Below, piece after piece: positions 27,805-34,033 of a stretch of DNA of 64,000 bases. The stretch lies in NCBI GenBank assembly GCA_913061265.1, contig CAJXVS010000002.1:62001-126000 (forward strand), written 5' to 3'. The stretch comes from an uncultured Halobacteriovorax sp. Its GTDB lineage: Bacteria; Bdellovibrionota; Bacteriovoracia; Bacteriovoracales; Bacteriovoracaceae. A model generated the notes under the pieces. The model did no database searches. It saw only the letters and a program-made list of their open reading frames with translations, and was not told where the DNA came from. A program made the position numbers and the translations under genes. Every line of letters starts with the position of its first letter. The stretch's first letter is position 1.

Positions 27805-29880
27805 ATGAACAAATTATTTGATCGTTTAAAATTTTTAGGACAGAACTCAGATCTCTTAGTAGCTCTAGGTTTAATGTTTGTTTTAGGAGTCATGGTTGTT
27901 CCTGTTTCTCCTTGGGTTCTTGATCTTTTTCTAGCTTTAAGTTTATCAATTTCAATCGTAATCCTTTTAATGAGTGTCTACGCAAAGAGACCTCTAGATT
28001 TTAGTACTTTTCCATCAATTCTTTTAGTGATGACCTTATTTAGATTGTCACTCAACGTCGCCTCTACAAGAAATATTCTTTTACGTGGTGGTAGTGATGG
28101 AACTGCAGCTGCTGGGGATATTATTAAGTCCTTTGGTGAGTTTGTTGTTGAAGGGAATTATATTGTTGGGATTACGGTTTTCTTAATCTTAGTCATCATT
28201 AACTTTATGGTTATTACAAAAGGTGCTGGTCGAGTGGCTGAAGTTGCTGCCAGATTTACCTTGGACGCTATGCCTGGTAAACAAATGGCGATTGACGCTG
28301 ATTTGAATGCCGGTCTTATAGATGATGCTACTGCCAAGCTTAGAAGAAAAGAAATTGGCGAAGAAGCTGACTTCTACGGTTCTATGGATGGTGCTTCGAA
28401 ATTCGTTAGAGGAGATGCCATCGCTGGTATCTTAATTACGGCCATCAATATCTTAGTTGGGATTATCATTGGTGTTGTTCAAAATGATATGAGCTTTGCC
28501 ACTGCAACTGAAACCTTTACTCTTCTAACAGTAGGGGATGGTCTTGTAACTCAAGTTCCTGCTCTTATCATCTCGACTGCAGCTGGTATCATCGCTACAA
28601 GAAACACATCTGAAACGGCTCTTGGTGTTCAGATTATCGATCAATTTAAAGTTCATCCAAAAGCTTTATATATAGCTTCTGCAGCTCTCTTTATCTTTTC
28701 TTTAGTTCCAGGTCTTCCTAAGCTTCCTTTTATGGCAGCAGGTGCGGGGCTCTTTTACATGGGTTACTCAATTCAAAACACTACAGATAAAGAGGAACTG
28801 GAGTTAGAGCAAAGATCTGCTGAAGATCAAAAGGCAGCTCCAGAGAACTTAGAAGACCTCCTTGGTTTAGAATTAGTAGAGTTAGAAGTTGGTTATGGAC
28901 TTGTTAACCTTGTTGATTCAGATCAAGACGGTGATCTTCTAGAGAGGATCACTCATATTAGAAAACAATTTGCTCTTGATTGGGGTGTGATCATTCCGTC
29001 AGTTCAAATTAAAGATAATCTTGAGCTTGCTCCTGGTGGTTATAGCGTAAAAGTAAAAGGCATTGAAGTAGCGAAGGGTGAGCTTATGAGCGATCACTAT
29101 CTTGCTATGGACCCAGGTTCTGTTATTGAAAAGATGGATGGAGTTGAAACTGTTGAACCAGTCTTTGGATTACCGGCCGTTTGGATTACTGATGAGCAGA
29201 GAGACGATGCTCAATACAATGGATATACAGTAGTAGATTTATCAACTGTTGTTGCAACCCACTTGACTGAAATCCTCAAGAACAATCTTCATGAACTCTT
29301 TGGAAGACAAGAACTAGTTAGAATCATGGACAATTTCAAAGAAACTAACCCAAAAATCGTTTCAGACCTCATACCAGACATATTATCGCTTGGTGTTGTT
29401 CTCAAAGTGTTGCAAAATTTACTAAGAGAAGGTGTTTCAATAAGAGATTTACGGACAACCTTAGAAACTTTGGCCGAGTATGGTCCAGTTTCAAAGGATC
29501 CAGATCAGCTTACTGAGATGGTTAGGCAGGCTCTGTACAGGACGATTACGGAGGCAATTAGAAGTGATCAAGGTGACATTCCATTATTCACACTTGATCG
29601 AGGAATTGAAGAATCGATTGCTAACAATATTATCCAGACAGAGAAGGGGCAGCAGTTAAGCCTCGACCCGAAAATTACGCAAACAATTTTAGCAAGCCTT
29701 AACGAAAGAATCGAAGAGGCCACAAATATGGGAGAGAAAATGATCGTGCTTTGTTCACCTGTTGTACGTAATCATTTTAAGAAGCTGACAGAAAAGTTTA
29801 TTCCCAACTTGGTAGTGATTAGTCATAACGAACTAAGTTCTGATGCAAATATCAGATCTTTAGGCACAGTGAGGTTATAG
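27805..29880 (+). CDS. flhA: Flagellar export protein FlhA
   Basis: The 691-residue protein has an eight-helix N-terminal region and the conserved loop after helix 4-5 (AARFTLDAMPGKQMAIDADLNAG). The soluble nonameric ring domain starts near residue 340. It is the motive-force-using gate for export. Its end, SSDANIRSLGTVRL, joins flhF with one base between the genes. Confidence 0.97.
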   Translation: MNKLFDRLKFLGQNSDLLVALGLMFVLGVMVVPVSPWVLDLFLALSLSISIVILLMSVYAKRPLDFSTFPSILLVMTLFRLSLNVASTRNILLRGGSDGTAAAGDIIKSFGEFVVEGNYIVGITVFLILVIINFMVITKGAGRVAEVAARFTLDAMPGKQMAIDADLNAGLIDDATAKLRRKEIGEEADFYGSMDGASKFVRGDAIAGILITAINILVGIIIGVVQNDMSFATATETFTLLTVGDGLVTQVPALIISTAAGIIATRNTSETALGVQIIDQFKVHPKALYIASAALFIFSLVPGLPKLPFMAAGAGLFYMGYSIQNTTDKEELELEQRSAEDQKAAPENLEDLLGLELVELEVGYGLVNLVDSDQDGDLLERITHIRKQFALDWGVIIPSVQIKDNLELAPGGYSVKVKGIEVAKGELMSDHYLAMDPGSVIEKMDGVETVEPVFGLPAVWITDEQRDDAQYNGYTVVDLSTVVATHLTEILKNNLHELFGRQELVRIMDNFKETNPKIVSDLIPDILSLGVVLKVLQNLLREGVSIRDLRTTLETLAEYGPVSKDPDQLTEMVRQALYRTITEAIRSDQGDIPLFTLDRGIEESIANNIIQTEKGQQLSLDPKITQTILASLNERIEEATNMGEKMIVLCSPVVRNHFKKLTEKFIPNLVVISHNELSSDANIRSLGTVRL

Positions 29881-29881
29881 G

Positions 29882-31303
29882 ATGTACGTACAGAAGTTTG
29901 AAGCGGATTCATTGGACGAAGCCCTCAAAACAATTAAAAGAGAATTAGGGCCCGATGCGATTATCCTTAAAACGGTAACCAATAAAGGTCTTAAAGGCGC
30001 TTTTAAGAAAAAAAGAATCGAAGTCACTGCTGCTATTAGTGAAGGTAACTACACTAGTAAGGCAAATGTCGATAATGTTCTAAGTGATAGTGAAAAAGAT
30101 ACTTTTTATTCAGATGATGCTTCTTATATTAAACAACAAATTCACTCTCATAATCAAAGCTCACAAAGATCTAACTCTGCAAATAACTCAAATGCAACTT
30201 ACGGTGGAATGGCCCTTAACAAGCAAGTTAAGAGCGTCAAGGATATGGGATCAAAGTTAAAGTCTTCACTAGATGACTTTCTTAGCGCTCCAGCTCCTTC
30301 TCAAAGAGAAGAAATAAGAGAAGAACCTATCAGAAGAGCGCAACCACAAGCTGCTGTAGAACAAAGCTTAGGTGTTGATAACTTTGTTGATGAAGAACCA
30401 ATGCTAATGGAAGCCGATAGCTCATTAGTTGATTTACAAAAAAAGAAGATCGATGACCTTGAAAGAAAATTATATGAATTAACACAATCAGTTGAACGCT
30501 TAGATCAAAAAGAGCCAATTGGGGTTTATGAACTAAGAACAACTCTTAGAAGCTTAGATATTAGTGACTCATATATTCAAAACCTAGTTAAGAAATCTCT
30601 TTTCGAACTCGATGAAAATCAAACAGCTGATGCTGATACAGTATTTGAGTTTGCCCTTAGAGAAATGATTAAAAGCGTTAATGTTGAGATGCCATTGTTT
30701 TCAACAATCGATGAAACCTCTAACCCTGCTATCACTGTTCTTGTCTCTGATAGTTCAAGTGGGCAGACTTCGATGCTACAGAAGATCGCCGCTTTAAAAG
30801 AAGACTCTGTACTCATTAGAAATACTGAGTTTGATAGTAATAATAGCTTTGCAGAAAAAGTTTTTGGTCTAAACGTCATTCAGACCAATGGGATTGCAGA
30901 GATTGTAGGCGAGTGTCGTAAGGCAATTGAAGCTGGGAAAACAGTCTTTGTTGATTACAAAGCTGGCAATGATGAACTAAACGCAGATGGTGTACCAAAC
31001 CAAACAAAGAAATTTATTGATGGCCTTGGTAGAGCTTTTGATAATGTGGAAGTCTTGGTCACTCTTTCAGCAATTCATTCTGAATTGTATAATAGAAAGG
31101 TAGTTGCGAAGTATAGAGGCTTATCAAATGGTCTTGTTATTTCTCACCTTGATGAGTGTTTAAATTTTGGAGCTCTTTTCAATATTGGCGAAGATCATCC
31201 AGAGCAACCGTTTAAATTTTTTGGAACTGGGGAAGTCGTACCTGACGACCTTGAGTCCGCAACAGCTGAAAGGATTTTGGCTGGTATATTTCAATTCGGA
31301 TAA
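29882..31303 (+). CDS. flhF: FlhF-family SRP-type GTPase with degenerate P-loop
   Basis: The 473-residue protein sits between flhA and flhG, as FlhF does. The start (YVQKFEADSLDEALKTIKRELGPDAIILKT) and end (GTGEVVPDDLESATAERILAGIF) are diagnostic FlhF. The nucleotide site is damaged. The P-loop position near 287-297 reads SDSSSGQTSM, where active FlhF has a glycine start and GKT, so the lysine is replaced by Gln. The G3 region reads VDYKAGND in place of DTAGR. The SHLDE guanine-recognition region is retained. FlhF places the polar flagellum; this copy probably cannot hydrolyse GTP in the standard way. Confidence 0.87.
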   Translation: MYVQKFEADSLDEALKTIKRELGPDAIILKTVTNKGLKGAFKKKRIEVTAAISEGNYTSKANVDNVLSDSEKDTFYSDDASYIKQQIHSHNQSSQRSNSANNSNATYGGMALNKQVKSVKDMGSKLKSSLDDFLSAPAPSQREEIREEPIRRAQPQAAVEQSLGVDNFVDEEPMLMEADSSLVDLQKKKIDDLERKLYELTQSVERLDQKEPIGVYELRTTLRSLDISDSYIQNLVKKSLFELDENQTADADTVFEFALREMIKSVNVEMPLFSTIDETSNPAITVLVSDSSSGQTSMLQKIAALKEDSVLIRNTEFDSNNSFAEKVFGLNVIQTNGIAEIVGECRKAIEAGKTVFVDYKAGNDELNADGVPNQTKKFIDGLGRAFDNVEVLVTLSAIHSELYNRKVVAKYRGLSNGLVISHLDECLNFGALFNIGEDHPEQPFKFFGTGEVVPDDLESATAERILAGIFQFG

Positions 31304-31365
31304 TGGGAGTCCTTTTAATTTCTAAGTGGAAATAAAAAGATAAACCATTAAATTGAGGAGACAGG

Positions 31366-32280
31366 ATGTCGACTAAAAATGCCACTGAATGGCTTATGTC
31401 ACACAAGCGCTTTGATGCGCACCAATTAAAAAAAATACCTAATCGTACTTACAGTATTGCTATTACAAGTGGCAAAGGTGGAGTCGGTAAAACTTCTGTC
31501 AGTATTAAAATGGCAAAGGTTTTAGCTGAAGATGGATACCGAGTTCTCTTAGTAGACTTTGATACCAACCTCTCTAACACCGCAGTGAAGCTAGGTCTTC
31601 CCATTAACGATAATTTTTATGATCTTCTAAGCTCTAAAAAGAAGTTTGAAGATTGCATCCATTCAGATGGCAACTTCCATTTATTAAGTGCCTGTAATGG
31701 AAATCTAAATATGCTTGATAACGAAGTTGGTCTTGATAAGATCATCATCGATATCATGGGTGAGCATGAAAAAGAATATGACTTTATTCTTCTTGATTGT
31801 CCAGCTGGTCTTAGTAAAGAATCTCTTTCACTAAGCGCTTATTGTGACTATCGATTTGTCGTCGTGACGCCAGACCGATCTTCAATCACTGATAGCTATT
31901 CACTTATTAAAATATTAAATCAAAAGTATGGCGTGACTGAAAATCACCTCCTTTTAAATAAAGTTTCTTCGAACAGACAGTATGAAAGGCTCGTTAAAAG
32001 CCTGAGCGAAACAGTAAACAATTTTCTTACTTGCCGCTTACAAGTACTCGGTGGTCTCTCGTATGAGAACCAAGAAGTCGACCATTTTGACAGGTTACTG
32101 TTAAAAGATGCCGGTTCGAGGATTCATAAGAACATTCTTAAAGTGATAAAACGATTTACCGAAAAAGACATTGGTACCTCTTTCTCAAACCAAGAAAACC
32201 TTGTTGGAGAAGAGACTCTAGTACCCTACGCCCCTAAAAAATTAGGCGTAGATGACCTTGAACAGGATGTTCAACTCTAG
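31366..32280 (+). CDS. flhG: FlhG/FleN MinD-type ATPase (flagellar number regulator)
   Basis: The 304-residue protein has an intact deviant Walker A (TSGKGGVGKT, about 34-43), the VDFDTN loop and Walker B (FILLDCPAG). FlhG limits flagellar number and, in known systems, activates FlhF through an N-terminal DQAxxLR helix. Here the matching position (about residues 5-11) reads NATEWLM, with the Asp, Gln, Ala and Arg all changed. This parallels the degenerate FlhF. AGGAG lies before ATG. Confidence 0.9.
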   Translation: MSTKNATEWLMSHKRFDAHQLKKIPNRTYSIAITSGKGGVGKTSVSIKMAKVLAEDGYRVLLVDFDTNLSNTAVKLGLPINDNFYDLLSSKKKFEDCIHSDGNFHLLSACNGNLNMLDNEVGLDKIIIDIMGEHEKEYDFILLDCPAGLSKESLSLSAYCDYRFVVVTPDRSSITDSYSLIKILNQKYGVTENHLLLNKVSSNRQYERLVKSLSETVNNFLTCRLQVLGGLSYENQEVDHFDRLLLKDAGSRIHKNILKVIKRFTEKDIGTSFSNQENLVGEETLVPYAPKKLGVDDLEQDVQL

Positions 32281-32298
32281 AAAGCTAAGGAGCGCTTG

Positions 32299-33084
32299 AT
32301 GTCATCACTTTCGAAAAAACTTAAAAACTTAAAGGATTATCGTTCAACAGTAGACCCAAAGGTTAAGGACGAGATCATTATTGAGTATGCGCCCCTGGTA
32401 AAATTTATTGCCCAAAAGATTGCGTCAAGATTGCCAGCCAATATTGAGCTTGATGATCTTATTTCATGTGGTGTTATTGGTCTTATGGATGCTATCGAAA
32501 AATTCGATCCTACAAGAGATAATAAGTTTAAAACATATGCAGAATTTAGAGTAAGAGGAGCTATCCTTGATGAATTGAGAGCTCAAGATTGGGTTCCTAG
32601 ATCAATTAGAGAAAAAGCAAAATTAGTTGAAAGAACATATGCCAAATTAGAGTCAGCTCTAAATAGGCCAGCTACTGATGATGAAATGTGCCAGGAACTT
32701 AACTGCACACAAGATGAATTTCATGATCTCCTAAACAAAGCAAAATCAGTTTCGTTATTAAATATTGATGACTCAGCCACTTTTAATCGTGGTGATAAAA
32801 AACTTATGGCCGGACTTATGGATGACAGCAGAACAGTCAATCCATTCACAGCTGTTAGTCATAAAAATATCAGAGACAAGCTTAAAGAAGGAATTGGAAC
32901 ACTTCCTGAAAAGCAAAGACTAGTTCTTTCGCTTTACTACTACGAAGATCTAAACTTAAAAGAAATTGGATCGGTCTTAGACGTGACTGAGTCAAGAGTT
33001 TCACAACTTCATACTCAAGCAATCTTAAAGTTAAAAGGTAAACTCAGAGGAGTCTTAGACTCACCTGAGGATATGGCAAGCTAG
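32299..33084 (+). CDS. fliA: Flagellar sigma factor sigma-28
   Basis: This 261-residue sigma-70-family protein of the FliA type has region 2 (LDDLISCGVIGLMDAIEKFDPTRDNKFKTYAEFRVRGAILDELR), region 3 and region 4 (LPEKQRLVLSLYYYEDLNLKEIG, with VSQLHTQAILKLK). It directs late flagellar and chemotaxis genes. AAGGAG at 32287-32292 favours ATG 32299 over TTG 32296. No FlgM anti-sigma gene is seen in the window. Confidence 0.96.
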   Translation: MSSLSKKLKNLKDYRSTVDPKVKDEIIIEYAPLVKFIAQKIASRLPANIELDDLISCGVIGLMDAIEKFDPTRDNKFKTYAEFRVRGAILDELRAQDWVPRSIREKAKLVERTYAKLESALNRPATDDEMCQELNCTQDEFHDLLNKAKSVSLLNIDDSATFNRGDKKLMAGLMDDSRTVNPFTAVSHKNIRDKLKEGIGTLPEKQRLVLSLYYYEDLNLKEIGSVLDVTESRVSQLHTQAILKLKGKLRGVLDSPEDMAS

Positions 33085-33091
33085 GAAGAAT

Positions 33092-34033
33092 ATGGAATTA
33101 AGCTCAAGTGGCCAGTTTATGAAGGACTTCAAGCACGGAATGGATGCTATTGAAGACCTTCACCGATTGGCCAATCCGAGCTTAAGTCCTGTTATTAGCC
33201 GGGTCCATTATCACTTGGCTGAAATCAGAAGAAAAGCAACAGAGAGCCTTGAAGATCATCCTGGTCTTAAGCCTTTAAAGTCTAAGATTAAAGAAGAATT
33301 TAAGTTTCTCATTGAAGAAGCAGCTCTAACAATTGAGAACTGTCAGCAATTGGTCATAACAGATAACAATGCAAAGCTTAACCTTATGCAATGGGGTAGG
33401 CTTATTGAAACTGTACCTTTAGCCATTCAACTTATTTCCCTATTTCCGATTAAAGGAATGATGGAAGTTAATTACACTAATAAAAGCCTCGTTATCAATT
33501 CGAATTTAAAAAGTTATCATGAACTAGATAAAATTAAGGCGGAGGTTTACGCTTTTAGCCGAAAACTATTTCATTTAAAATGCCTTCCTACTTTTGAAAT
33601 AGTAGGAGCTCATAAAGTTCAATTTAAGTTTGATTTCTCACACGTAGATGATTTCACTTACTCAATAGATCTTAATAAAAAGAGAGTAAATCTCTCAAAT
33701 ATATTTCCTGATTATCAAATACCAATTCAAAAAATCGAAGCAATAGACAACCAAACTGCTCTGATAATGAGTGCAAAAGGTGAATTTTATTATTTTGAAA
33801 AGCTAAAAGCCTCTACAATTCAGACAGCAATTCTCAATGGTGCTAAGCCAGCTCTTTTCCATTTTCCCTTCCTATTTCGCCCCCTCTCCATCATAATACC
33901 AAGAGAAGGAGAAATAGCTCCTTTAGACGGATTTATAGGCACAGGATGTGAAAAACTATTAACCGATCAGGACTTTGGTAAGCCATCAAAACCTGTTCAT
34001 GCTTTAGATATCTTTTCCATTCTGAGTAAGTAA
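33092..34033 (+). CDS. Unknown protein at the end of the flagellar operon
   Basis: No family is recognised. The 313-residue soluble protein starts seven bases after fliA (GGAAGA before ATG). Its first 110 residues are helical (FKHGMDAIEDLHRLAN, YHLAEIRRKATESLED) and the rest is strand-rich (PTFEIVGAHKVQFKFDFSHVDDF, VNLSNIFPDYQIPI). No membrane segment or signal peptide is present. Tight coupling to fliA suggests a role in flagellar control or assembly; this is context only. Confidence 0.6.
   Translation: MELSSSGQFMKDFKHGMDAIEDLHRLANPSLSPVISRVHYHLAEIRRKATESLEDHPGLKPLKSKIKEEFKFLIEEAALTIENCQQLVITDNNAKLNLMQWGRLIETVPLAIQLISLFPIKGMMEVNYTNKSLVINSNLKSYHELDKIKAEVYAFSRKLFHLKCLPTFEIVGAHKVQFKFDFSHVDDFTYSIDLNKKRVNLSNIFPDYQIPIQKIEAIDNQTALIMSAKGEFYYFEKLKASTIQTAILNGAKPALFHFPFLFRPLSIIIPREGEIAPLDGFIGTGCEKLLTDQDFGKPSKPVHALDIFSILSK

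Follow-up and report, generated by a model that had tools for sequence, protein, structure and literature searches.

FlhF of the Bacteriovoracaceae is a fixed pseudo-GTPase form, the product of neither sequence error nor decay. In the FlhF analysed here the P-loop reads SDSSSGQT, lacking both the lysine and the leading glycine as the original prediction had it, and the ORF and the alignment agree on this reading. The replacing residues, S289 and Q295, were found in 96/96 distinct FlhF of the family and lysine in 0/96. Judged by its sequence, the protein is classed among pseudo-GTPase homologues of FlhF and not among GTPase FlhF, because its G1 departs from GxxxxGK(S/T) and no family member has the lysine.

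The flhF locus and the change in the P-loop

The window, a stretch of 64,000 nucleotides from a genome of 3.97 Mb, carries the genes flhB-flhA-flhF-flhG-fliA in this order in the ORF list, with flhF placed between flhA and flhG/fliA. The names flhA and flhB are putative, read from the sequence alone.

27805..29880, + strand: flhA, ORF, upstream neighbour of flhF (name read from sequence)
29882..31303, + strand: flhF, pseudo-GTPase form, 473 aa (ORF; NCBIfam TIGR03499 match; 31-row family alignment)
31366..32280, + strand: flhG/fleN, MinD-type ATPase, 304 aa (ORF; best solved relatives FleN 5j1j and FlhG 4rz2)
32296..33084, + strand: fliA-type sigma factor, downstream neighbour of flhG (Pfam Sigma70 r2, r3, r4)

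A 313-aa protein encoded 3′ of fliA (33092-34033) matched no Pfam family above the cut-off. The named relatives of the window FlhF belong to the family Bacteriovoracaceae (Halobacteriovorax, Bacteriovorax), the nearest named one being from Halobacteriovorax sp. SP2999 with 77-80% identity. The NCBIfam FlhF model TIGR03499 matches the protein with E 7.8e-20 and 72 bits, below the model cut-off of 174 bits.

The first alignment combined 31 family genomes with 13 FlhF from other Bdellovibrionota families, and in it the lysine was missing from all of the former and present in all of the latter; after the addition of 80 named loci and extra outgroup loci, the final count covers 96 distinct Bacteriovoracaceae and 72 other Bdellovibrionota. 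The replacement loop of the family, S-[ED]-x-x-x-G-Q-[ST], is strictly conserved, and its second position is acidic (E/D290) in 91/96 members. Q295 is encoded by CAA (63) or CAG (33), a single base away from the lysine codons. It is present also in the cultured isolates Bacteriovorax BSW11_IV (L066) and DB6_IX (L075), as well as in records that bear the names Halobacteriovorax marinus and Bacteriovorax stolpii. FlhF from the other Bdellovibrionota families have GxxxxGK[ST] intact, with both G and K in 72/72.

A sequence error or a misaligned P-loop in the source genome is refuted and deserves practically no credence. Nothing was found in its favour, the Gln is common to isolates and MAGs, and no close relative with an intact GKT turned up among the 96. 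A true P-loop elsewhere in the protein is ruled out as well: the 31-member alignment, the profile alignment with FlhF 2px0 of B. subtilis, which pairs its P-loop with the SDSSSGQT loop, and the predicted beta1 and alpha1 (residues 284-289 and 295-305) all fix the same column. The original prediction had proposed mapping the change on a tree. In a tree computed with G1 omitted the family forms one clade (stem 2.15, support 100), for which one P-loop change is enough, and this stem is among the longest in the phylum-wide FlhF tree. That change falls at the base of Bacteriovoracaceae, where a single event on the stem accounts for it.

Nucleotide pocket, fold and selection

The features of FlhF are as follows; the definitions of motifs G1-G5 were taken from PMC10910532.

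29882..30052, + strand: FliG-interacting domain (FID), residues 1-57 (matched by profile to 9en1, the crystal structure of the Shewanella FID, E 0.002)
30200..30283, + strand: motifs YGxxGLNKxV (residues 107-116, 30200-30229) and LDDFL (residues 130-134, 30269-30283) in the disordered linker (family conservation)
30500..30706, + strand: helical N domain, residues 207-275 (high-pLDDT AlphaFold2 helices; structure-alignment ranges begin at 207-212)
30731..31291, + strand: pseudo-G domain, residues 284-470 (AlphaFold2 model against FlhF structures; dN/dS)
30746..30769, + strand: G1 position, SDSSSGQT for GxxxxGKT, residues 289-296
30803..30871, + strand: G2/switch I, shortened and without DxxR/K, residues 308-330 (motif counts; G1-to-beta3 length)
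30953..30964, + strand: G3 position, DYKA for DTAG, residues 358-361 (alignment)
31142..31153, + strand: G4 position, SHLD, residues 421-424 (alignment; Asp424 kept)
31223..31234, + strand: G5 position, GTGE, residues 448-451, which fits Gx(G/S)(K/E/Q) (PMC10910532)

The damage is not limited to the P-loop. The G2-like DxxR/K is present in 7/96 family members versus 61/72 other Bdellovibrionota; the window FlhF has neither this motif nor the stricter DTxR, and about 6 residues fewer separate G1 from beta3 in the family (median 36 versus 42). The predicted alteration of the DTAGR region is borne out, as DTAG aligns with D358-Y-K-A, where the Asp is kept and the Gly lost. Residue 360 is basic in 93/96 family members (Lys 55, Arg 38), while in other families it is mostly Pro, Thr or Ala. 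The G4 consensus (N/T)(K/Q)xD is likewise gone, with the Lys mostly turned into His, Asn or Tyr, and this Lys is weakly kept also outside the family (38/72 other Bdellovibrionota). D358, D424, G294, S/T296 and the GTG(E/P) loop of G5 are conserved in the family. Because D358, D424, S/T296 and the GTG(E/P) loop are retained, weak or non-canonical nucleotide binding is possible. Taken together, the motifs suggest that FlhF would not hydrolyse GTP and probably would not bind it.

E/D290 and K/R360 co-occur (Fisher p 0.006, a value inflated by shared ancestry) and may form an internal salt bridge that fills the phosphate site. In the pseudo-GTPase domain pG1 of p190RhoGAP a Glu-Arg salt bridge obstructs the guanosine site and switch I carries a deletion (PMC5593906); the pair in FlhF, taken from co-occurrence alone, would lie on the phosphate side.

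The basic residue 360 could also be read as a substitute for the P-loop lysine, as in WNK kinases, in an FlhF that still cycles as a rewired active GTPase. Its presence in 93/96 members and the strict conservation of so odd a P-loop are consistent with this reading, but neither G2 DxxR/K nor the co-catalytic Gln of DQAxxLR is present, and the residue varies between Lys and Arg and accompanies an acidic 290, so that we regard it as improbable. Somewhat better placed, though still rather unlikely, is an FlhF resembling the class ii pseudo-GTPases of the Rnd type, in which the G4 Asp and G5 would hold GTP in a locked, active, non-hydrolysing dimer. The conserved D358, D424, G294, S/T296 and GTG loop would suit it, and for Pseudomonas and Vibrio GTP binding without hydrolysis is enough to place the flagellum (PMC12713375, PMC6092412). 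It is opposed by the Ser in place of the first G1 Gly in 96/96 members, by the acidic second position of G1, by the absence of the G2 element in 89/96, and by the lost G3 Gly and G4 Lys.

The fold itself is predicted to remain that of an SRP-GTPase NG domain. The AlphaFold2 model of FlhF has a mean pLDDT of 80.9, with the N and G domains mostly above 90, and aligns with the FlhF structures 2px3, 8r9r and 2px0 with Z 19.5-19.6 over 223-227 residues (VIA-align); FtsY structures reach Z on par with these against the same model. The best-conserved stretch of the protein is the FID (mean majority fraction 0.83). The linker has pLDDT mostly below 50, and between 88 and 95 of the 96 family members share the conserved letters of its two motifs, which are absent elsewhere. 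The motifs are candidate docking sites for a partner. The coiled stretch also matched hemagglutinin HA2 chains in the profile search; these matches were disregarded as coiled-coil look-alikes.

The G domain is under strong purifying selection: its dN/dS is 0.01-0.06 in 12 close pairs and its dN is lower than that of the whole protein. We therefore consider it highly improbable, and largely refuted, that FlhF is decaying toward loss under relaxed selection with its function relocated. The long stem and the few family genomes without an FlhF match would agree with decay; the low dN/dS, the invariant Gln and the presence of an uninterrupted flhF in almost every near-complete family genome argue against it. 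FlhF was not found in the family genomes G009, G027, G029, G059 and G109, which are possibly non-flagellated or incomplete. A Pfam SRP54 search of the source genome recovered Ffh and FtsY only and no second FlhF, and none was found in 59 family genomes either, where the extra matches were degenerate FlhF, contig-edge pieces and short P-loop matches to other ATPases.

FlhG and its N-terminal helix

FlhG stimulates the GTPase of FlhF through its DQAxxLR helix. The FlhG of the window is closest among solved structures to FleN 5j1j (E 1e-39) and FlhG 4rz2, and two of its features were compared across the family.

31375..31401, + strand: N-terminal helix, residues 4-12, with W9-L10 in place of DQAxxLR (conservation and model)
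31471..31494, + strand: Walker A GKGGVGKT, residues 36-43 (KGGxGK(S/T) intact)

Walker A was correctly predicted to be intact, and it is so in 90/90 family FlhG. The DQAxxLR position was likewise rightly called changed: it reads NATEWLMS in the window, and DQAxxLR occurs in 0/90 family members. It is not simply lost, however, as at that N-terminal site 88/90 carry a near-invariant Trp-Leu pair (86 found by pattern search, plus L070 and L075, both overlooked by it), and W9 is invariant in FlhG alignment A4. In the FlhG model the helix of residues 4-12 sits on a flexible tether and has low confidence. The C-terminus (residues 272-304) is predicted to be disordered, with no membrane-targeting helix seen in the model. 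A conserved stretch in the C-terminus, about EQEVQ, resembles a protein motif, but may instead reflect overlapping start signals of fliA.

The claim that both halves of the GTPase cycle were lost together did not hold. DQAxxLR is missing in 37/55 reliably read FlhG of other Bdellovibrionota (L148, in the wrong frame, was excluded), and the FlhF beside them keeps GK[ST]. Loss of DQAxxLR is thus common in the phylum and uncoupled from loss of the P-loop. What stands of that claim is the degradation of G1, G2, the G3 Gly and part of G4 in FlhF and the absence of DQAxxLR from FlhG.

The pair varies in other ways across the phylum. In several other Bdellovibrionota lineages the FlhF P-loop is intact and no flhG adjoins it; flhG is absent beside flhF at L035, L036, L134, L145, L149 (f12) and L188 (f15), as well as at L037, L153, L164, L168 and L174 in f8. 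The next gene at these loci has a long low-complexity N-terminal extension, often with 'QKYK' or 'QKYRE', which at L037 continues into sigma-factor-like sequence. Elsewhere in family f8 (L147, L154, L171, L175, L178) and in f19 (L192) an intact FlhF is followed by an FlhG-like protein in which DQAxxLR is kept and Walker A lost or degraded. The sequences suggest that these are pseudo-ATPases keeping just the FlhF-activating tip. That of L192, missed by the FlhG model, has a DQAEKLR helix and a GAGKS loop for KGGVGK.

Within Bacteriovoracaceae, flhG is absent between the pseudo-GTPase flhF and fliA at one locus of genus g32 (L048, genome G033). The FlhF there has 375 aa and a shortened linker, and the preceding gene is a 173-aa ORF, not flhA. 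We looked for a close FlhG in the G033 genome and found none.

Proposed placement of the flagellum without a GTP cycle

We consider it probable, with some reserve, that FlhF in this family is a dedicated pseudo-GTPase that acts as a constitutive, nucleotide-independent scaffold, with the ATP cycle of FlhG as the off-switch. The FID would recruit FliG-FliF and the NG domain would bind a polar partner without nucleotide, as in the Shewanella NG-HubP interaction, while FlhG would take over the off-switch and the control of flagellar number; its ATP cycle would, by way of the Trp-Leu helix, stand in for stimulated GTP hydrolysis. Placement without GTP hydrolysis, as originally suggested, is the likeliest reading because G1, G2, the G3 Gly and part of G4 are degraded and DQAxxLR is missing from FlhG. 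FlhG is likely the remaining switch, though not a universal one, since no close FlhG was found in G033, which keeps FlhF.

In Shewanella the first 60 residues of FlhF bind FliG, and the binding of NG to HubP is independent of nucleotide (PMC11236974). Against a scaffold counts the reported need of GTP binding for polar localisation in Vibrio and Pseudomonas (PMC12713375, PMC6092412); in Vibrio a catalytic-Arg mutant of FlhF still places flagella and binding-motif mutants fail (PMC6092412). The genome was searched for HubP with a FimV C-terminal model and for FipA with DUF2802; neither gave a match, which is uninformative, as control genomes also fell below the cut-off. A single polar flagellum is described for Bacteriovorax species (PMC7175336, PMC12642874).

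A wider version of the scaffold reading is possible, if somewhat short of likely. It holds that a nucleotide-free FlhF scaffold places the polar flagellum family-wide, that the cycle has moved to the FlhG ATPase via a new Trp-Leu helix docking on the pseudo-G domain, and that the FlhF-FlhG circuit of Bdellovibrionota has been dismantled in several ways, by loss of the GTPase motif, the ATPase motif, the activator helix or FlhG itself.

The protein resembles FlhF of B. subtilis (2px0/2px3) and S. putrefaciens (8r9r) in the gene order flhA-flhF-flhG-fliA and in the N-terminal FID, linker, N domain and G-domain fold. Unlike canonical FlhF, it has Gln for Lys and Ser for the first Gly, lacks G2 DxxR/K and the G3 Gly, carries new conserved linker motifs and scores below the family cut-off. 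FlhG shares with 5j1j and 4rz2 the Walker A, the MinD fold and the short N-terminal helix carried by a flexible tether, and differs in the Trp-Leu pair and the C-terminus predicted to be disordered. With the pseudo-GTPases p190RhoGAP (class i) and Rnd (class ii) FlhF has in common the GTPase fold, lost G motifs and a shortened switch I; unlike them it is SRP-type, bacterial and the sole FlhF of its genome, not an extra domain. No description of a pseudo-GTPase FlhF was found in the literature searched, whose coverage excluded most subscription journals.

In models of polar flagellation, GTP binding causes FlhF to dimerise and to move to the pole, a state that FlhG ends by triggering hydrolysis. 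Bacteriovoracaceae are a natural case in which to ask what part of the FlhF GTP cycle is essential, because their sole FlhF has been without the P-loop Lys since the origin of the family and the described species have a single polar flagellum. The tight conservation of an FlhF without this Lys suggests that the flagellum can be placed without a GTP switch, and an SRP-type pseudo-GTPase is thereby available in cultivable predatory bacteria.
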